Source: a virus
Length of the DNA stretch: 27,949 bases
Reading direction: 5' to 3' (one strand)
IMG/VR virus record: IMGVR_UViG_3300033571_007242
Location: 1-27,949 of that record
Made by a program: the position numbers and the translations under genes. The notes under the pieces were generated by a model that was not told the origin of the DNA, did no database searches, and saw only the letters and a program-made list of their open reading frames with translations. Shown here in pieces: positions 8,853-19,683 of this stretch; position 1 is the first letter of the stretch, and each line of letters opens with the position of its first letter.

Positions 8853-9307
8853 TGCCACACACGGAATCAGTCTTTCCGCTCGGAGTGCCGATCGCGCCTA
8901 CGGAGCCGAACGACACGAACCCGACCCACATCGCCGAGTACGGGCGCGGCGGACTCATGTCCGTCGCCGACCTGACCGCCCGTGACGCGATCGCAAGCGA
9001 CCGCAAGAAGGTCGGAATGCTCGTCTATGTCCAGTCAGAGGCGAAGTATTTCACGCTGACGGCTATTCCGAACACATGGATAGAGCTCGCGACCGGAGGA
9101 GGTCTGACTCCGCTTGTTCCGTCTCCTGCCGGCACGTTCAACTTTGCGAACGTGACCGTAGATCAGTATGGACGAGTCACGTCGGCAACGCAGAACAACG
9201 ACGTGGCGAGCGCGACGACGCAGCAGCAGATCCTCGCGACGGTCGATTTCCTCATCAACGACATCTCTGTGAACGGCGTGAACGGCGGATCCTGGGACCA
9301 GAACTAA
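8852..9307 (+). CDS. Tail fibre/tip protein (151 aa)
   Basis: This gene encodes 151 residues from ATG 8852, with GGAGGT (8838-8843) 8 bases upstream inside the previous gene's end. Residues about 38-82 have the common fibre segment 'VADLTARDAI', 'KKVGMLVYVQSEAKYFTL', 'WIEL'. Residues about 98-112 have 'FANVTVDQYGRVTSA', another motif typical of phage fibre shafts. The last 30 residues are a helix (TTQQQILATVDFL) and a glycine-asparagine turn. These are structural adhesin modules with no enzymatic motif. It is translationally coupled to the genes on either side, suggesting a fixed ratio in one tip complex. Confidence 0.6.
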   Translation: MPHTESVFPLGVPIAPTEPNDTNPTHIAEYGRGGLMSVADLTARDAIASDRKKVGMLVYVQSEAKYFTLTAIPNTWIELATGGGLTPLVPSPAGTFNFANVTVDQYGRVTSATQNNDVASATTQQQILATVDFLINDISVNGVNGGSWDQN

Positions 9308-10395
9308 TGCTGATCGGATACCCCTACGACCCCGTGACGCAGGATCTATGGCTCTACCAGGACATCACTGTATCATGGACTGCCCCGATCCCTGGAAGCC
9401 AGGTCGTGAAGCAGCCGTATGCATGGAATCCGAGCAGTCCTCTCTATGGCTATAGAAACTCGCTCATCGGCATCTCGGCGAGGTTGAGAACCCTTGATAC
9501 CGAGAGTCCCAGGCTCGGTTCGGGATCAACAGCTCCGTACAGCACATACAACGATCCATTCAATCCGGTCAACAGGCCGGTCTGGTACAACTCGTTTCCG
9601 ATGACGTTCCTGATGCTGGCGGATGGATTCGCGGTCAGTTGCGCGCATTGCTACTCGGGTTTCAATATCCCTAGAAATCCGTCAGTGAGGCTCGTCGGAA
9701 CGGGTGGTTATACGGCCAATGGTCGGTTCGACGCTATATTTACCGCATCGACGCGATGGCTGAACGCGGACAACAGCCTTCGGTTCGCCGCTGATCCAAA
9801 GAACATCATTCCGTTCGGATCGGACACCTTTCAGTCGATCGCATTCCAGATGGCGGTCGACCTAAATGTCTTCGAGTGCCTCGATCTATCGGACGTTCCG
9901 CCGGTCATCCCGGTGGATTGCAGGTCGATGTCGTTAGGGCAGACGGCATGGGTGCTCGACAGTAACCATAAGATCATCAGGGTCCGATCCGTCAAGAACT
10001 ACGTCGACAGCGGCGACCTGCGCTCGCTGTTCAAGGCGGTAAATCCCGATGGGACTGAATCGCCGGTCGATGTCGAGCTGTTCCTCCACGACAGTGGAAC
10101 ATTCGCCCTTGCCGAGATCAAGCCGCCGACCAGCGCGGCTGCGGGAGACGGGATCATGGGCGTCCTCGTGGCATCCGTGAAGTCACCGAACGAACTCGTC
10201 GGAGACCAGCCGTTGCAGCAGCCGATGTCTCCTCCGACGACGGGATACCTTGCGAACAAGCCAAGCCTCTCAAGGAACCTATACGAATACTTCAGCGCGA
10301 GGGGATCTCCGGTCAATCCGCTTACGTTCGCACGCAGGACGGGAGCACATGCGACCGAGACCGTGGAGCAGCAGATCCTCTCGATACTGACATGA
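9307..10395 (+). CDS. Putative trypsin-like serine protease domain protein of the tail tip
   Basis: This gene encodes 362 residues. ATG 9307 overlaps the previous TAA (TAATG); the frame is open upstream, but the coupled start is preferred. Residues 103-116 read as a strand into 'AVSCAHCY', matching the trypsin-family 'TAAHC' motif with His114. 'VDLNVFECLDL' at 184-194 resembles the 'DVAVLEL' strand with Asp185. 'LFLHDSGTFALAE' at 258-270 resembles the nucleophile motif (G)DSG with Ser263. Order H-D-S, spacing and the 'AWVLDSN' strand (214-220) fit a chymotrypsin fold. The oxyanion 'GDSGGP' is altered to HDSGTF, so activity is uncertain. The position among fibres suggests self-processing of adhesins or attack on host surface protein. 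It could be a dead, structural copy of the fold. Confidence 0.5.
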   Translation: MLIGYPYDPVTQDLWLYQDITVSWTAPIPGSQVVKQPYAWNPSSPLYGYRNSLIGISARLRTLDTESPRLGSGSTAPYSTYNDPFNPVNRPVWYNSFPMTFLMLADGFAVSCAHCYSGFNIPRNPSVRLVGTGGYTANGRFDAIFTASTRWLNADNSLRFAADPKNIIPFGSDTFQSIAFQMAVDLNVFECLDLSDVPPVIPVDCRSMSLGQTAWVLDSNHKIIRVRSVKNYVDSGDLRSLFKAVNPDGTESPVDVELFLHDSGTFALAEIKPPTSAAAGDGIMGVLVASVKSPNELVGDQPLQQPMSPPTTGYLANKPSLSRNLYEYFSARGSPVNPLTFARRTGAHATETVEQQILSILT

Positions 10396-10407: not shown

Positions 10408-11565
10408 ATGCCATTGACCGGACCAGTCATTCCATGCGCATTTCGAGCAAACCAGAATATCCCTGCGATTGCACCGAATCCCGAGCCCATTCCTGTTACG
10501 GGTGATTCCGGTCAGTATGGTGAGATCATCACCTGTCTACGAACTGGACGCATGTGGATTCTGGGAAAACTTCCCGATGGCACTGCGACCTACAGGCCGA
10601 TCTCGGGATCCGACGTTCGTGCGTTCGTCCACAACAGCTCTGGTGCGACCCTGAATAAGGGAAAGGTCGTCTACGTCACGGGATCGAACGGCGTGGACAA
10701 GATCACGGTCGCCCTCGCCGATGCCAATGTCGAGAGCATGTCGGCGAAGACCCTCGGAGTCGTATGGGAGGACATTGCCAACGGAGCCGATGGGTTCGTC
10801 GTCACCGAGGGCTTGCTGACGGGTATTGCGACAAACGCCATCGGAAATGCCGGAGACGCGATCTGGCTTTCCGCCACGGCAGGCTTGTTCACCACGACCC
10901 GTCCGACCCAGCCTGACCACGGGGTCTTCATCGGGTGGATCGTCAAGAGCGCGGGGGCGGGCGCAGGCAGCATCTTCGTCAAGGTCATCAACTATCCCGA
11001 GCTCGACGAGCTGCATGATGTCCTGATCGCGAATCTCCTCGACAACGAGGCCCTGATCTACGACGCCGCCTCTGGGCTTTGGAAGAACGAGAAGGTCTCC
11101 TACTCGAGCATCCAGGATGTCGAGGCTTCGTCCCTGCTCGGTCGGTCGAACGCCAGCAATGGGGTGACGCAGGAGATCAAGCTCTCGGCGCAGTTCGTAT
11201 GGGGCACGGCGGGCGGCAAGCCCCAGCTGTCCATCGCCACGGTCTCGGATGCCACGAAGGTCGACACCAGCACCACGCTGACGGCAGGGGTCGGTTTGAC
11301 TGGTGGTGGCGACCTGACGACCAGCCGCAGCTTCGCTGTCGACTTCGCCTCGAGCGGCACGGTCAGCACGACGAAGGCCGTGCGGGCCGACGACGCGCGC
11401 CTGAGCAATGCCAGGACGCCTACAGCCCACGCGCACCTAATCAACGATCTAACAGACTTTGCTGTCAGCGCCGTTGCTGACAAGAACGTACTGCAATATT
11501 CTTCCGCCACAGGTAAATGGGTGAACGTCTCCCAGGCCGATCTGGTCGATGGCGGCGTCTTCTAA
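10408..11565 (+). CDS. Tail fibre protein (385 aa)
   Basis: This gene encodes 385 residues from ATG 10408, with GGAG at 10397-10400. The N-terminal 70 residues are unassigned. Residues about 75-195 form a virion domain with 'VRAFVHNSSGATLNKGKVVY', repeated glycine turns and 'GIATNAIGNAGDAIWLSA', of a kind common in phage surface proteins. The C-terminal half has standard shaft motifs: 'TLTAGVGLTGGGDLTTSRSF', 'RADDARLSNARTPTAHAH' and 'NVLQYSSATGKWVNVSQADL'. It ends in 'LVDGGVF'. No catalytic motif is seen. It is probably one of several fibres at the tail tip. Confidence 0.7.
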   Translation: MPLTGPVIPCAFRANQNIPAIAPNPEPIPVTGDSGQYGEIITCLRTGRMWILGKLPDGTATYRPISGSDVRAFVHNSSGATLNKGKVVYVTGSNGVDKITVALADANVESMSAKTLGVVWEDIANGADGFVVTEGLLTGIATNAIGNAGDAIWLSATAGLFTTTRPTQPDHGVFIGWIVKSAGAGAGSIFVKVINYPELDELHDVLIANLLDNEALIYDAASGLWKNEKVSYSSIQDVEASSLLGRSNASNGVTQEIKLSAQFVWGTAGGKPQLSIATVSDATKVDTSTTLTAGVGLTGGGDLTTSRSFAVDFASSGTVSTTKAVRADDARLSNARTPTAHAHLINDLTDFAVSAVADKNVLQYSSATGKWVNVSQADLVDGGVF

Positions 11566-14077: not shown

Positions 14078-14278
14078 GTGAGCTTCGATCAACTTGGAAC
14101 CATCATTGCGCCTATGGCGACGATCCTTGCGGCGTCGGCGTGGATCCACAACAGCCTCAACCGCCTCGCCGTGAAGGTCGAGGTTCTTGCATCAAAGCTC
14201 GATGACTACGGCGAGCGTATCCGCCGGATCGAGCACGAACTTGATGAGATCAGGAGAAACACTCATGGAAGAAACTAA
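14078..14278 (+). CDS. Membrane-anchored coiled-coil protein of the lysis region (66 aa)
   Basis: GTG 14078 has GGAG at 14066-14069. Residues about 6-24 form a weakly hydrophobic N-terminal segment (LGTIIAPMATILAASAWI). Residues 28-60 are a charged heptad-like helix (VEVLASKLDDYGERIRRIEH). A short N-terminal anchor followed by a coiled coil, immediately upstream of the holin and overlapping it by 14 bases, resembles XhlA-like holin partners and inner-membrane spanin subunits, although it is short for an i-spanin. The function is inferred from layout only. Confidence 0.55.
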   Translation: MSFDQLGTIIAPMATILAASAWIHNSLNRLAVKVEVLASKLDDYGERIRRIEHELDEIRRNTHGRN

Positions 14279-14453
14279 ACCCGGATACAAGACGACCGAG
14301 TTCTGGCTCGCCTTCGTGGCGATGGTGATCGGCGCGGCATTCGCGTCGGGGATCTTCCCTGCGGAGAGCGCGGGCGACAAGGTGCTCGGTCTCGCGGCGA
14401 CCGTGCTCACCGCCCTCGGCTACACGGTCAGCCGAACGATGGTGAAGAAGTGA
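14265..14453 (+). CDS. Holin-like membrane protein (62 aa)
   Basis: ATG 14265 follows AGGAG (14252-14256) at a good distance. After a charged start (EETKPGYKTTEFW), residues 13-31 form a transmembrane helix (FWLALVA-type: FWLAFVAMVIGAAFASGIF). A second, less hydrophobic segment spans residues 41-55 (VLGLAATVLTALGYT), and the protein ends in a basic 'SRTMVKK' tail. Size, one or two membrane segments and a basic tail are typical of small phage holins, which open the inner membrane at lysis. It overlaps the gene before it and lies one base from the next. Confidence 0.7.
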   Translation: MEETKPGYKTTEFWLAFVAMVIGAAFASGIFPAESAGDKVLGLAATVLTALGYTVSRTMVKK

Positions 14454-14454
14454 C

Positions 14455-14616
14455 ATGCTCGAGCGCATCGTCGCACAGGTCACCGTCGCGCTCATCGCGT
14501 GGCTCGACAAGCGCATCTCGCAGAGCCCAGTGGGCACGGATGCTGCTCCTGATCCTGATGCTCTTCGCCGCGCTGGCGACCGCATCTCTCAGTGGATGCG
14601 GGACGGCAGGAAATAG
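14455..14616 (+). CDS. Small amphipathic protein overlapping the lipoprotein gene (53 aa)
   Basis: ATG 14455 begins one base after the holin stop. The product starts with an amphipathic helix (MLERIVAQVTVALIAWLDKR). It then has a proline/aspartate linker (GTDAAPDPDALRRA) and a basic helical end (DRISQWMRDGRK). The 3' half, 14540-14616, is shared out of frame with the lipoprotein gene, an arrangement like Rz/Rz1. It is too short and not hydrophobic enough for a normal i-spanin. Its regular position after the holin suggests a part in lysis, for example membrane disturbance. The function is unknown. Confidence 0.55.
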   Translation: MLERIVAQVTVALIAWLDKRISQSPVGTDAAPDPDALRRAGDRISQWMRDGRK

Positions 14617-14779
14617 GACTGTCTTCGTTCCCGAGGCTTCGCCGATGCGGATCGGCCCGAAGGCTCGGTTCAAGGTCTGGATCAGGACGCAGGGATCGAC
14701 CGACTGGGAGCTTTCCTCCAACGAAGTCGCGATCCCCGAGGGTTGGTACATCGTGCCACCCTCATACGTCAGGGAATGA
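14540..14779 (+). CDS. Phage lipoprotein, possible outer-membrane spanin (79 aa)
   Basis: From ATG 14540 the product has a signal peptide 'MLLLILMLFAALATASLSGC' with a perfect lipobox Leu17-Ser18-Gly19-Cys20. The mature part is about 60 residues: 'TVFVPEASPMRIGPKARFKV' and 'VAIPEGWYIVPP'. Cys20 would be lipidated and the protein sorted to a membrane. The gene starts inside the preceding 53-residue gene in the +1 frame, as Rz1 does inside Rz. O-spanins are usually proline-rich; this one has only a few prolines, so it may be another type of lysis or superinfection-exclusion lipoprotein. No strong ribosome binding site precedes it. Confidence 0.65.
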   Translation: MLLLILMLFAALATASLSGCGTAGNRTVFVPEASPMRIGPKARFKVWIRTQGSTDWELSSNEVAIPEGWYIVPPSYVRE

Positions 14780-14795
14780 CGGAAACAGGGGTGTC

Positions 14796-15668
14796 ATGGG
14801 AATCCTCGACAGAGTCTCCGTCAGGAAGGCCGACAAGGCTGTCCTGCGGATCGAGTTTCGACCCGAGCGCAACTCGGACTACCTGTGGATGCTGCTCCGC
14901 TCGGACGCGCACCACGACAATGCACACACGGACATCGAGATGGAGCGCCGGCATCTCGAGGAGGCGAAGCGCCGAGAGGCCCTGATCCTCGACAACGGCG
15001 ACCTGCACTGCGCGATGCAGGGGCGGTGGGACAAGCGAGCCGACCGCAGCGCCATGCGACCCGAGTACCAGTTCGGGAACTACCTTGACCGTCTGGTCGA
15101 CGAAGCGGTCAAGTTCTACGGCCCGTATGCTCCTAACTGGTGCATGATGGGTCTTGGCAACCACGAGACGGCGATCCTGAAGCACCACGAGACGAACCTG
15201 ACGGAGCGGGTCGTCGAGAGGCTCAAGCTCGAGGGAGCCGGCAACCTGCACGCCTGCGGATACGCCGGGTGGGTCAGACTCCTCATCTTCGCGCCGAACA
15301 CAAGGCGCTCGGGGAGCCTGTGGATCTACCGGCACCACGGCTACGGCGGAGGCGGCCCCGTGACGCGTGGCACCATCCAGACCTCGCGCATGGCGGTCTA
15401 CCTGCCCGATGCGCAGATCGTGTGGACGGGGCATACCCACGACCAGTGGATCATGCCGATCGAGCGATACAGGGTCACGCACGCGGACAGCCCATACACG
15501 GACAGGCAGGTCCACGTCAGGACCCCGGGCTACAAGGACGAGTTTACGCCGCAGGATGGGTGGCACACGGAGCGCGGAGGTCCGCCGAAGCCCCGTGGGG
15601 CGCTCTGGCTCAGGGCTAGAATAACCCAGGACGGCACAGTAGACTACGACATTACGGAGGCGCGCTGA
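14796..15668 (+). CDS. Calcineurin-like metallophosphoesterase (290 aa)
   Basis: This gene encodes 290 residues from ATG 14796. All the metal-binding motifs of the family appear in order: D-x-H in 'RSDAHHD' (Asp37, His39), G-D in 'NGDLH' (Asp69), G-N-H-E (Asn122, His123), a histidine in 'YRHHGYGG' (His181) and 'GHTHD' (His213, His215). It should bind two metal ions and cleave phosphomono- or phosphodiesters. The substrate cannot be told from the motifs; DNA, RNA, nucleotides or a cell-envelope phosphate are all possible. The location, between a lysis cassette and surface proteins instead of with the replication genes, is unexpected. No signal peptide is present. TGATG coupling follows. Confidence 0.85.
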   Translation: MGILDRVSVRKADKAVLRIEFRPERNSDYLWMLLRSDAHHDNAHTDIEMERRHLEEAKRREALILDNGDLHCAMQGRWDKRADRSAMRPEYQFGNYLDRLVDEAVKFYGPYAPNWCMMGLGNHETAILKHHETNLTERVVERLKLEGAGNLHACGYAGWVRLLIFAPNTRRSGSLWIYRHHGYGGGGPVTRGTIQTSRMAVYLPDAQIVWTGHTHDQWIMPIERYRVTHADSPYTDRQVHVRTPGYKDEFTPQDGWHTERGGPPKPRGALWLRARITQDGTVDYDITEAR

Positions 15669-16015
15669 TGGCGGCGGGAATCTACAACTTCACGATCGAG
15701 CAGGGTGCTACGTTCACCAAGGGCTTCACATGGAACGACGATGACGGAAATCCCGTCAACCTGACTGGCTACACGGCGCGGATGCAGTGTCGCGCGAGCA
15801 TCGGTTCGACGGCGACCATCTTCTCGTACACGACTCCATCGGCAAACCTGTCGATTCCGACTCCTGCCAATGGAACGATCGTCCTGTCCATTTCCGCGAC
15901 GGACACGTCGAACTTTCCGGTTGGCGGCGTCTATGACCTCGAGCTCGTGAGCGGTACCACCGTCACGCGCCTGCTTCAGGGAACCATCAGCCTTTCAGGG
16001 GAGATCACGCGATGA
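15668..16015 (+). CDS. Virion surface protein with Ig-like/BppU-type N-terminal fold (115 aa)
   Basis: ATG 15668 overlaps the previous TGA. 'YNFTIEQGATFTKGFTWNDD' followed by 'GNPVNLTGYTARMQCRASIG', 'GTIVLSISATDTSNFPVGGV', 'YDLELVSGTTVTRLLQGTI' and a final 'EITR' is a widespread pattern among phage proteins. It has the 'Q-G-x-x-x-x-x-x-x-W-x-x-x-D-G-x-P-V-x-L' strand pair found in baseplate upper proteins and decoration-like proteins. It is all beta, about 115 residues, the usual size for this single domain. It is probably a linker or base for the adhesin encoded next, with which it overlaps by four bases. Confidence 0.65.
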   Translation: MAAGIYNFTIEQGATFTKGFTWNDDDGNPVNLTGYTARMQCRASIGSTATIFSYTTPSANLSIPTPANGTIVLSISATDTSNFPVGGVYDLELVSGTTVTRLLQGTISLSGEITR

Positions 16016-16830
16016 GCGTTACCGTCACCGAGACCAACAACAACGTGACGATCACTGGATCGTATTTCTTCCCGCCCGCGTCATACATCCAGGACGCGAT
16101 CACCGAACAGTTCATCCGCTCTCAGGATGCCTACGACCCAGCGGAAGTGGCTCGGCTCTACAGCGACTTCACGGGCACGTTTGATCCATTCAGCTTCTGC
16201 TCGGGAACAATCGGCGCTCCAGGAAGCGGATTCTACCAGTTTGTTACTGGAGATCCGACCTTGTTTGGTGTGATCACAATCGTGACAAATGGATTATCCT
16301 CTGGATGCAGGGCGGGATTGTTTGCCACTCCCCTCGATAACAATGGAAACAACGTGCTCCGAGGTTTCATTTTCGGAATCGCACAGGCTCGCCTCAAGGC
16401 CAAATGCAGCTTTGTGATCGGCCTTCAGACGAGCCGCGTTGTGGTGGGATGCGCAGTCACCCACGCTGGCAACGATGTCAGCGGTGGAAAGCTGATGATG
16501 CAGTACGGCATCGCATTCGTTGCATACGGAACAGGCGGAAACTGGATCGCCACTACGGCAGACAACAACGTGCTGACCGAGGTCGACACCGGAGTCCCTG
16601 CCAGCCAGTGGTCGAACCTCGAGATCATCGTGTCAGCCGATGGAAACACCGCTACATGGCTGATCGACGGAGTCGTTAAGCGAACGAGCACCAATGGGCC
16701 GTTCTTCGACTACAACGCAAATGCATGCGCATGGGGCATTGAGATGCGCGACAAGCTCGCAGGCGGAGCTGGATCTCCCTCCCAGTTCTCCATCGACTAC
16801 ATGCTTGTAGAGCGAACCGCATCTCGGTGA
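16012..16830 (+). CDS. Putative lectin-fold adhesin (272 aa)
   Basis: ATG 16012 is in an ATGA overlap. The first 28 residues are a threonine/asparagine-rich strand segment. The rest is a glycine- and aromatic-rich beta domain. 'WSNLEIIVSADGNTATWLID' followed by 'GVVKRTSTNGP' near residues 202-232, with 'FSIDYMLVERT' at the end, is the pattern of concanavalin/LamG-like jelly rolls: a W-x-x-L-x-I strand, a D-G-x-T turn, then 'W-x-I-D-G' and a final strand. It is likely a carbohydrate- or surface-binding virion protein. Specific binding residues cannot be assigned. Confidence 0.5.
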   Translation: MSVTVTETNNNVTITGSYFFPPASYIQDAITEQFIRSQDAYDPAEVARLYSDFTGTFDPFSFCSGTIGAPGSGFYQFVTGDPTLFGVITIVTNGLSSGCRAGLFATPLDNNGNNVLRGFIFGIAQARLKAKCSFVIGLQTSRVVVGCAVTHAGNDVSGGKLMMQYGIAFVAYGTGGNWIATTADNNVLTEVDTGVPASQWSNLEIIVSADGNTATWLIDGVVKRTSTNGPFFDYNANACAWGIEMRDKLAGGAGSPSQFSIDYMLVERTASR

Positions 16831-16841
16831 AGGAGGTCTTC

Positions 16842-17108
16842 ATGGCCCGCAAGCCGAAGAAGGACGAGGGCGACCCGGTCGACCTCACTCCCCTGTACCA
16901 CGCAGAGCAGCTCTGCCGTGGATTCATCGAGCAGGTCGGAGCGGACGCGGTCGTGGTCGTCTGGACGACGCAGAGCGGGCGCGCGACGAAGTACTGGCGT
17001 CACCAGCTCGGCAATGCGATGCTCTGCAATGCCCTCGTCACGAAGACGAGCGAGCAGCAGGAGGAGTCGGAGTGCGAGACCGAAGAGGAAGAGGAGGATG
17101 ACGATTGA
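16842..17108 (+). CDS. Small protein with extremely acidic C-terminal tail (88 aa)
   Basis: ATG 16842 is chosen because AAGGAGGT lies just upstream (around 16830); an in-frame GTG at 16827 is without a site. Residues 1-12 are basic (MARKPKKDEGD). Residues 15-62 look like a small mixed fold (EQLCRGFIEQVGADAVVVVW). The last 19 residues are almost all Glu/Asp (SECETEEEEEDDD). The acidic codons also build the GGAGG (17093-17097) for the next gene. Acidic tails occur in DNA-mimic proteins and in chaperones. Pairing with the cysteine-rich gene after it suggests a chaperone or partner, but no family is recognised. Confidence 0.5.
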   Translation: MARKPKKDEGDPVDLTPLYHAEQLCRGFIEQVGADAVVVVWTTQSGRATKYWRHQLGNAMLCNALVTKTSEQQEESECETEEEEEDDD

Positions 17109-19255
17109 GCACTGCAAGGGGCTGCTGCTGCACTCCCACCGACAAATGCGACAAGGACTGCATCTGGGGCACGGAGATCGAGAGCGGATGCTGCCACAAG
17201 GACGACGTTCTGCTCTTCTGGGCGGAGCGCAACGCCTACAACCTGCGCACCAACATCTCGTCGGTCGGACCTGATCCGGAGAACTTCGGCGGCATCCTTG
17301 TCAAGGAGATCTGCTGCGACCACAGCCAGCCGCAGGAAGGTCCGATCCAGGCGATCTACAAGTACCACGACTGCTACTGGCGCTGCATCAAGCTCGGCCT
17401 GTCGGGACTTCCCGGCGTCGAGCCACTCGCCGAGATGTGCCCCGATGCGACGTGCGACTACGGCGTCGATCAGAACGGCAATCAAGTCCCCTTGCCATGC
17501 CTTGCGTTCCGTGATCCCGATTGCTGGTGCTGCAACGACCCGATCTACAACCAGCAGCAATGGAGCAGCAACACGCTTCCGTGCTGCGCCAACTGCAACA
17601 CGGGAATGATGTCCGAGTGGCGCAAGAGGCGCATGGCTTCGGTCGACCGATGGAAGTGGTTTGTCGAGGCGGTCTGCCACAAGAACGGTCTTGACCTTGG
17701 ATCCGCAGGCGACTGCGAGACGATCACGACGAGCGATGGAAACGCCACCTATGGGAATTGCAGCCGCCTGCTGAACCAGGCGTTGTGCGTCGTCCACTTC
17801 GAGCGATGGTGGAAGATCGCCGAGTGCGCCGAGGGCGACCGCATCTATGTACCCGGATGCACGCCCGGTCCTGGTGGATTCGACTGTGGCGGCAACATCT
17901 ATCAGTCGACCGAGCTTGTTCCGAAGTGGTGGATCTTCGCGTGCTCGGGAATCCCGCTCTACGCCGGCGACCTGATCGACGCGGTTCGCTTCGAGGTCAT
18001 CACCGAGGCCGAGGCCATCTCCGTCCTCGACGATCTCGGCGATGGTTGCCGTCATCCGTCGCAGACGATCCTGCGCAAGCTCGCGGTCGCCGGCTACATC
18101 CGCGCGAACGACTGGCGCGACGAGCAGCGTCAGGCATTCATCGAGCTCGACGCCAGGTTCCCCGGCGCTGGCTATGCGTCTTGCATCGAGGACACGCACC
18201 TCATGCACACGCTCGGTCCGTTCCGCAAGCGCATGACCTACAAGACGGTCGGCACGAGCACGCAGCCGCTCCTGCGCAAGAACGACGTTGTCGACAACCC
18301 CGATCTCATTCCGTTGCAGGCGGATTGCTTCGTCGCCTATCCGGGCGCGACGACGGGCGCGACGGCGCAGGCTGACTACGACTACTGGGCGGAACGCCAG
18401 TGGGTCTACTTCCGTGGCCGTCCGGGCGGATGGCAGTGGGCCGGCTGGGGCGCGACCCAGTGCGGAGGAGGGGAGCAGAACGAGATCCTGTCGATCCTGC
18501 TCGGCAACGGGCGCGGCGACGATTCGTGCATCGAGTCGTTCAAGGGAGGCGGTCGATCGCCCGGTACCGACACGCCATGCTCGTGCTGCAACACGAGCCT
18601 GCCCGTTGGCTACAGGCTCGACTGCCGGGGCTGCTCCTACGGCGACTTCGACACAAGCCTTATTCCCGCGTGCCAGCCGCCGAGCGTCTGCAAGCTGCTC
18701 TCGTACCGACCGTTCTGCGAGGGCCTGCACATCCAGTTCTCGAACTACGAGTTCGAGACGGACCTGCGTTCCCCGGGCAGCGATCCGAATGGCGGCGGGA
18801 TCCTCTGCGACCTGTGCTCGAAGAACCAGTGCCTCGTCAAGACGAACGCATATCTCGTCGAGGCGCGCCGCGTGGTCGATTCATGGAACGACGCGATCCC
18901 GTTCACCTGCCGTCCAGAGTCGCCGCCGCTTCCTCCGTTCACGAGCTGGCCTGCATGGGTGAAGAACCATCCTGCTCCGCAGAGCTCGATCTGCAACTTC
19001 GCCATCGAGCCCGGTCAGGATCAATCGGCGTGGTGCTGGTGCGCGACTCCTCCGTGCGCTCCGAGCGAATACACCGACCGCATGTGCTGCGGAGGCATGT
19101 GCCAGGACTTCCTGTGCGACTGCGTGCCCGAGGCGGTCGATCCATACAGCGGACCATCTGCGCCTGCATGTCCGGCCAGCAACGATTGTCCTCCGCACTC
19201 GACGCAAGGACAGATAGGCTGCATCGGGTACACGCCTGATTGCCAACAGACATGA
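17105..19255 (+). CDS. Large cysteine-rich protein, unknown (716 aa)
   Basis: TTG 17105 overlaps the previous TGA and has GGAGG (17093-17097) 7 bases upstream. By hand count the protein has about 58 cysteines in 716 residues (about 8%), spread over the whole length. They include CCC near residue 7 and vicinal CC pairs (GCCH, ICCD, CWCC, PCCANC, CSCC, MCCGG). It is also rich in Trp, Tyr, Gly and Pro. The last 100 residues are densest (AWCWCATPPC, MCCGGMCQDFLCDC). I see no signal peptide, membrane segment, enzyme motif or regular EGF-like spacing. It is in the late, surface-protein region, so a disulfide-stabilised or metal-binding virion appendage is a reasonable guess. It follows an acidic-tail protein and precedes a zinc-ribbon-like one. 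Confidence 0.7.
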   Translation: MSTARGCCCTPTDKCDKDCIWGTEIESGCCHKDDVLLFWAERNAYNLRTNISSVGPDPENFGGILVKEICCDHSQPQEGPIQAIYKYHDCYWRCIKLGLSGLPGVEPLAEMCPDATCDYGVDQNGNQVPLPCLAFRDPDCWCCNDPIYNQQQWSSNTLPCCANCNTGMMSEWRKRRMASVDRWKWFVEAVCHKNGLDLGSAGDCETITTSDGNATYGNCSRLLNQALCVVHFERWWKIAECAEGDRIYVPGCTPGPGGFDCGGNIYQSTELVPKWWIFACSGIPLYAGDLIDAVRFEVITEAEAISVLDDLGDGCRHPSQTILRKLAVAGYIRANDWRDEQRQAFIELDARFPGAGYASCIEDTHLMHTLGPFRKRMTYKTVGTSTQPLLRKNDVVDNPDLIPLQADCFVAYPGATTGATAQADYDYWAERQWVYFRGRPGGWQWAGWGATQCGGGEQNEILSILLGNGRGDDSCIESFKGGGRSPGTDTPCSCCNTSLPVGYRLDCRGCSYGDFDTSLIPACQPPSVCKLLSYRPFCEGLHIQFSNYEFETDLRSPGSDPNGGGILCDLCSKNQCLVKTNAYLVEARRVVDSWNDAIPFTCRPESPPLPPFTSWPAWVKNHPAPQSSICNFAIEPGQDQSAWCWCATPPCAPSEYTDRMCCGGMCQDFLCDCVPEAVDPYSGPSAPACPASNDCPPHSTQGQIGCIGYTPDCQQT

Positions 19256-19683
19256 ATGAGAGAAACTCCTACATATCGTCGCATACCTCCGTCCAGTCGA
19301 ACCCGACGCCGACGCATCCGAAGCAGCCTGCTCCGCAGCAGCAAGGCGATCCGCAGATGAAGGTCACGGTCGCGAACGCGGCCAAGTACGTCACGGCGGA
19401 GATGAGCCTCCAGCTCTACGGACCCGTTCCTGATCCGATCTTCGAGGAGCGCAAGGCGCAGTGCATGGCGTGCCCGAGCCGGAAGACGAGCACGTCGATG
19501 CACGACGACATCGGGTTCTGCGCAAGCTGCGGCTGCGGCGTGAACGACCGCTCGAGGCTTACGGTCAAGCTTCGGATGCCGAAGGCGACCTGCCCCATGA
19601 ACAAGTGGGGCGAGGCGGACGGACGGCACGATCGGATTATCGACCGCATCAAATCCTTCATCGCGCGCACCATCATCGGTTGA
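19252..19683 (+). CDS. Small zinc-ribbon-like phage protein (143 aa)
   Basis: ATG 19252 overlaps the previous stop (ATGA); an in-frame TTG at 19240 would add four residues. Residues 1-35 are a flexible Ser/Pro/Gln linker (THPKQPAPQQQGDPQ). Residues 71-118 carry C-x2-C, C-x2-C-x-C and a final cysteine: Cys71, Cys74, Cys90, Cys93, Cys95, Cys114, in the pattern 'CMACPSRK', 'IGFCASCGCG', 'KATCPMNKW'. A small cysteine domain ending in 'A-x-C-P-x-x-K-W' is common in phage genomes but has no established role; metal binding is likely. Its stop codon overlaps the -35 box of the promoter for the next operon, so it closes the late transcription unit. Confidence 0.65.
   Translation: MNERNSYISSHTSVQSNPTPTHPKQPAPQQQGDPQMKVTVANAAKYVTAEMSLQLYGPVPDPIFEERKAQCMACPSRKTSTSMHDDIGFCASCGCGVNDRSRLTVKLRMPKATCPMNKWGEADGRHDRIIDRIKSFIARTIIG

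Follow-up and report, generated by a model that had tools for sequence, protein, structure and literature searches.

The CYS locus

The window analysed here, a virus record of 27,949 bases, contains the three coupled open reading frames that the initial annotation of this DNA had described; they are joined to one another by 4-base overlaps. The largest encodes a 716-residue protein (CYS) whose 58 counted cysteines agree with the approximate number given there. The features of the locus are as follows.

16842..17108, plus strand: 88-residue protein with an acidic tail, seen immediately before CYS-family genes and nowhere else
17092-17097, plus strand: AGGAGG Shine-Dalgarno sequence of CYS, within the acidic-tail codons and 7 nt before the TTG
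17105..19255, plus strand: CYS, CCC-headed, 716 residues, 58 Cys, representing one of the module's ~20 body families (see below)
17105..17131, plus strand: N-terminal head of CYS, MSTARGCCC, a proposed docking peptide; body swaps elsewhere break here
19252..19683, plus strand: partner A, a six-Cys zinc-ribbon-like, phrog_13558-like protein, whose start overlaps the CYS stop (ATGA)

CYS begins at a TTG codon and carries a single CCC, at residues 7-9. Cysteine makes up 8.1% of the protein, which also contains 23 Trp and 25 Tyr; other large proteins of the window have 3-9 Cys. Partner A follows the pattern CxxC...GFCxxCGC...CP..KW. Its six motif cysteines, already recognized in the initial annotation, are invariant in relatives. 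Its start most likely lies at ATG 19252 and not at 19240, because that Met is invariant among the same proteins. A profile match to phrog_13558 (E 6.7e-5) covers positions 20-68 of 69, and the score against DUF6171 (PF19668) was 13.4 bits, under the Pfam gathering cut-off of 27.

The acidic protein ends in EEEEEDDD. The three genes had been proposed to form one assembly in which an acidic chaperone, a metal- or disulfide-rich appendage and a metal-handling partner act together. Gene order lends this some support. At each of the 14 loci where the acidic gene was seen, the next gene is a member of the CYS family, and partner A follows if the contig extends far enough; over all 23 CYS loci with downstream sequence, partner A comes immediately after CYS in 19. 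The acidic tail is retained in most cases. However, the acidic gene is absent from half of the CYS loci and was not found beside any other body family. Its tail codons overlap the ribosome-binding site of CYS, and the AGGAGG they contain partly explains the acidic tail. The order of the genes was thus upheld where all are present, but the trio as a unit was not, since the acidic gene accompanies the CYS family only and the partner can be either of two types; we consider a three-gene assembly improbable.

Conserved cysteines and predicted fold of CYS

The CYS family comprises 28 loci and is conserved. Relatives contain 29-69 Cys each, a range that takes in truncated copies, and about 32 of the 58 Cys positions are present in at least 90% of them, which indicates that the cysteine load is selected rather than a product of chance. 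The spacing of the cysteines is close to that expected from composition (5 CxC against 4.5 expected; 5 CxxC against 4.7), and this lack of enrichment speaks against a zinc-knuckle or metallothionein build. A metallothionein-like metal sink, for which we looked for CxC/CxxC enrichment over composition, was rejected on these counts. Covariation within the family revealed a few paired cysteine losses (252/261, 19/280 and 67/ins511); most perfect pairs merely separate one clade, so that losses such as 252/261 hint only weakly at disulfides.

Structure prediction of CYS, proposed with the initial annotation, was carried out with AlphaFold2 using 24 natural sequences and gave a folded, fairly confident model (pLDDT 78, pTM 0.81). 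Foldseek comparison of this model with PDB and BFVD yielded nothing credible (best E 0.72 and 0.33), known receptor-binding folds included, and the CYS profile had no significant match among PDB sequences. The CYS body is therefore predicted to adopt a fold that has no counterpart in PDB or BFVD. None of the 24 members had a credible match in Pfam or PHROG, tail families included, in line with the suggestion that this is an undescribed assembly and not an ordinary annotated tail family. No relatives of CYS were found among 50,697 records of cultured phages.

A CCC head and a Cys-motif partner form a two-gene module

A scan of viral contigs for partner A returned 90 loci, or 87 distinct contigs once three duplicates were removed. 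In all 87, each with upstream sequence, the upstream neighbour of partner A is a Cys-rich open reading frame (3.7-13.5% Cys); two of these are cut at the 5' end, and selection by length weighted for cysteine is a possible source of bias, nearly all of the picks being longer than 300 residues. A literal CCC occurs in 76 of the 87 and nine others have N-terminal CC/CxC clusters, whereas none of 410 other open reading frames of at least 200 residues has CCC within its first 80 residues. Among representatives of the 20 families, 15 have CCC within the first 45 residues, against 0.34 expected for shuffled composition, and L165 has it too, behind a start that was probably mis-called. Nearly all of the upstream Cys-rich proteins thus share a head of ~6-12 residues ending in CCC. 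Head residues, assessed by eye, are mostly polar or small. A bacterial lipoprotein reading of the head was rejected, as no hydrophobic signal segment or lipobox precedes the first Cys.

By blastp, the bodies that follow the head group into 20 families; the proteins are as long as 1258 residues. Profile comparison with hhalign indicated that these families are mostly unrelated: several pairs align only at the head, most remaining pairs score near zero, and few are joined by profile (L071/L130/L105 share a domain and L080/L160 a short stretch). The L080 body contains IPT/TIG domains. A second body that we modelled, from family L118, gave a poor structure (pLDDT 57). Searches by tblastn with six proteins from four body families found no relatives in the 50,697 phage records, and matches of the ribbon to cultured phages were short generic ribbons (cyanophages and others) with no CCC neighbour in the six records examined.

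In three CYS loci (L023, L028 and L030) the position of partner A is taken by a small GLGD...CGCKxRxEALNRxVPF protein, and in one (L031) CYS has neither partner. The substitute belongs to a second type, partner B (GLGD...CxxCxxRxEALNRLVPF), which is unrelated to partner A, occupies the same position and often has CGPC or CGC adjoining a helix-like stretch. A scan for partner B placed a Cys-rich gene upstream in 43 of 66 loci, 38 of them with CCC; in the remaining loci, members of this broad family occur in other settings. Both partners occur with four body families (A/B counts 7/20, 12/12, 13/3 for CYS and 8/2), which means that two unrelated partners replace each other in place. No other observation points as strongly as this interchange to a joint action of partner and CCC protein. 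In general, the module consists of two genes, one for a Cys-rich protein with a CCC head and one for a small Cys-motif partner of either type.

These constant parts invite a reading in which the CCC head is a signal for chemical modification or attachment. The partner would be an enzyme or redox factor that modifies the head, oxidises it or loads it with metal, and the body could be any cargo, virion-borne or secreted. Head and partner are indeed the only constant parts, the CGPC/CGC of partner B recalls redox motifs, and the pattern of partner A is zinc-ribbon-like. Neither partner matched an enzyme fold or family, however, and the missing hydrophobic segment argues against a classical lipoprotein. 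We regard this reading as unlikely, though it deserves more weight than the other alternatives.

Bodies are exchanged behind a constant head

Close relatives provide a direct view of how bodies change. Three near-identical phages carry unrelated bodies behind the same head.

L183:2827-3531, L184:2674-3513, L185:2543-3496: unrelated bodies with the same head

Over the 2.0-2.6 kb preceding the head these phages have 95.7-98.4% identity; their bodies share no similarity, and the partner region is again 96.8-98.6% identical. They form a natural set for a functional test. Similarly, when L236/L237/L240 are compared with the L225-L239 group, identity is lost where the CCC codons end (-4 to 0 bp) and returns in the partner (92-100%). 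In near-identical genomes the break falls between -4 and +9 bp relative to the CCC codons. We recorded 46 swap pairs from 17 loci, including partial swaps that start ~120 bp later; these pairs are not independent and correspond to about three to four events. No body swaps were seen within the CYS family itself, the swaps coming from module relatives. A constant N-terminus followed by a body exchanged through recombination, as looked for in receptor-binding proteins, was thus found in these relatives. Such swaps are typical of other arms-race genes as well.

Genome neighbourhood

The window runs from tail-fibre-like through lysis-like and LtfC-like genes to the module, and the lysis-like genes sit between the fibres and CYS. 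Neighbouring genes that bear on the setting are listed below.

9301..10395, plus strand: structural-region gene; homologues lie upstream of CCC genes in SU10-type-adaptor phages
10408..11565, plus strand: fibre-like gene; in other types of phage its homologues precede CCC genes
15668..16015, plus strand: small beta-sandwich protein, phrog_1084 (3e-28), LtfC-like tail-fibre assembly (phrog_3304, 7e-13)
16012..16830, plus strand: upstream structural-module gene, lectin-like, with a weak ConA-like/Laminin_G match (E 0.012, below cut-off)

Contigs such as L170 encode, in order, a terminase (phrog_38, 5e-37), three presumed head genes that have no family match and an SU10-type adaptor (PF24175, 3e-6), followed by homologues of the window genes at 9301 and 10408, another gene, the CCC gene and partner A. 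In L171 a 1229-residue protein with a CBM96 match (2e-8) comes after partner A. The module of L183 is preceded by a presumed tape-measure gene, and its partner, which is of type B, has a tail-fibre-like gene (phrog_9729, 1e-7) behind it. In phages of several types the module has tail or head-neck genes around it, and location in a tail or host-recognition gene region, a further property of receptor-binding proteins, is therefore found here too.

Two further explanations turn on this setting. One would see an ordinary tail fibre family whose cysteine load is an effect of host or habitat and whose linkage is plain synteny of related phages; the module is in tail position and related contigs are among the matches. 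Against this, the arrangement recurs across twenty body families and phages of different types, and with two partners that are unrelated to each other, CYS relatives match no PHROG or Pfam tail family, and no independent assortment of partner A and the CCC protein was found, so we consider this explanation highly improbable. The other holds that the Cys-rich proteins are not virion parts, rather intracellular counter-host factors (metal or thiol sinks, or inhibitors) under arms-race selection. Whole-body swaps would suit any antagonistic gene and the module of the window lies near lysis and replication genes, but the tail, adaptor and fibre genes that surround the module in phages of several types, CxxC/CxC frequencies in CYS unlike those of metal sinks, sizes up to 1258 residues and the TIG domains of one body all argue the other way. 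We think a counter-host role distinctly unlikely, a little more so than a modification signal.

Several other features of these regions were recorded. Homologues of the 16012-16830 gene form a tandem duplicate in L020, L025 and L034. Positions 14078-14779 are a probable lysis cassette of two small membrane proteins and an LSGC-lipobox lipoprotein; the lipoprotein gene is nested with another small open reading frame and is found near CYS homologues in many relatives. A metallophosphoesterase-like gene (14790-15668; phrog_7339, 4e-13) lies in the tail/lysis region; many relatives carry a homologue close to the module, and in L061/L064 a gene resembling it is downstream of partner A. L171:15271-18957 and its relatives in 31 loci make up a family of very large virion-region proteins with the start ETTLDKRLERPGVQRG and the CBM96 match, and this family adjoins partner A in SU10-type-adaptor phages. 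The gene after the CYS homologue of L031 encodes a small protein that matches a prohead PHROG weakly. A YxWxEV-domain gene was rejected as a general upstream neighbour, as its end is no more than 160 bp from the head at only 21 of the 74 type A loci and at none of the 34 of type B; in many other loci it is one gene further upstream. A search for prophages and hosts in ~400 genomes each from the G001 and G002 phyla returned only two MAG contigs that were already known, and these may be misbinned viral contigs.

Proposed role of the module

Five directly supported observations bear on function: the pairing of the two genes, the head common to unrelated bodies, the whole-body swap, the replacement of one partner by another, and the tail or neck position. 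The reading that we favour, and hold to be somewhat probable, is that the module is an exchangeable tail-tip or receptor-binding part of the phage, with CYS as one of its bodies, docked by the CCC head and served by a dedicated partner. The ~6-12-residue N-terminal head ending in CCC would dock the protein on the particle, and the long Cys-rich body, probably stabilised by disulfides, would contact the host and be replaced wholesale by recombination. The downstream Cys-motif protein, whether type A or B, would be specialised for assembly or maturation of the CCC protein, either recognising its head or acting on the thiols of the head. What we infer in this proposal is that the CCC protein is part of the virion, that it binds a receptor, that its cysteines form disulfides and do not hold metal, and that head and partner touch, together with the chemistry of the CCC. 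In evolution and genome position the module resembles receptor-binding proteins, and it is this resemblance rather than membership that we claim. Points against a receptor-binding reading are the CYS homologue of L031 that is accompanied by no partner of either type, the lysis-like genes that intervene in the window and the lack of a fold match.

A more specific and decidedly tentative version of the docking proposal is that docking is keyed by thiols. Either of the two Cys-motif partners, themselves unrelated, would recognise the CCC head on unrelated, exchangeable Cys-rich bodies and, through disulfide exchange or a shared metal site, fix the body to the particle while the particle is leaving the reducing cytoplasm.

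Literature searches found no description of the module, and it is probably a type that has not been described before, spread through uncultivated bacterial viruses. Because the bodies have almost no known relatives, homology does not help to recognise them; a simple sequence rule (CCC head plus adjoining Cys-motif partner) picks out probable host-recognition proteins of uncultivated phages. The module raises the chemical question of how proteins with dozens of conserved cysteines can serve phages that are produced in a reducing cytoplasm, and the further question of why two unrelated small proteins can serve one head.

Comparison with known systems

The six-Cys ribbons of the phrog_13558/DUF6171 type have the same CxxC...CxxCGC...CP..KW pattern as partner A, but in the cultured cyanophages examined they are shorter and have no CCC neighbour. 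Collagen-type cystine knots adjoin triple helices, and by analogy the CCC head might staple chains in the manner of such a knot. CYS differs in having no collagen repeat; a point of likeness is that a collagen-like protein (GPQGPPGPPGP) with a CC-rich start is encoded directly upstream of CYS homologues (L031:2692-4095 and L012:5371-6804), itself a possible cystine-knot fibre.

Like tail fibre assembly chaperones of the Tfa/gp38 type, the partner is a small gene directly downstream of a large one, yet partners A and B had no sequence match to chaperone families. In Alteromonas phage A5, a tail fibre and its cognate chaperone are exchanged between distant phages as a host-recognition module (PMC10579305). 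The two systems share a large variable protein with a small dedicated gene, common to distant phages, and differ in that the partners here are zinc-ribbon-like or CxxC proteins of two unrelated types that alternate, neither with a chaperone match.

A further parallel is provided by the modular receptor-binding proteins of T7/K1F, K1-5, G7C and Klebsiella phages, in which short conserved N-terminal peptides, in some cases a hepta- or undecapeptide, dock exchangeable bodies (PMC6872550). The module described here differs in its CCC head, in Cys-rich bodies unrelated to known receptor-binding proteins and in an adjoining Cys-motif partner; it is like them in its constant N-terminal piece, in a body exchanged by horizontal transfer and in its place among tail genes.
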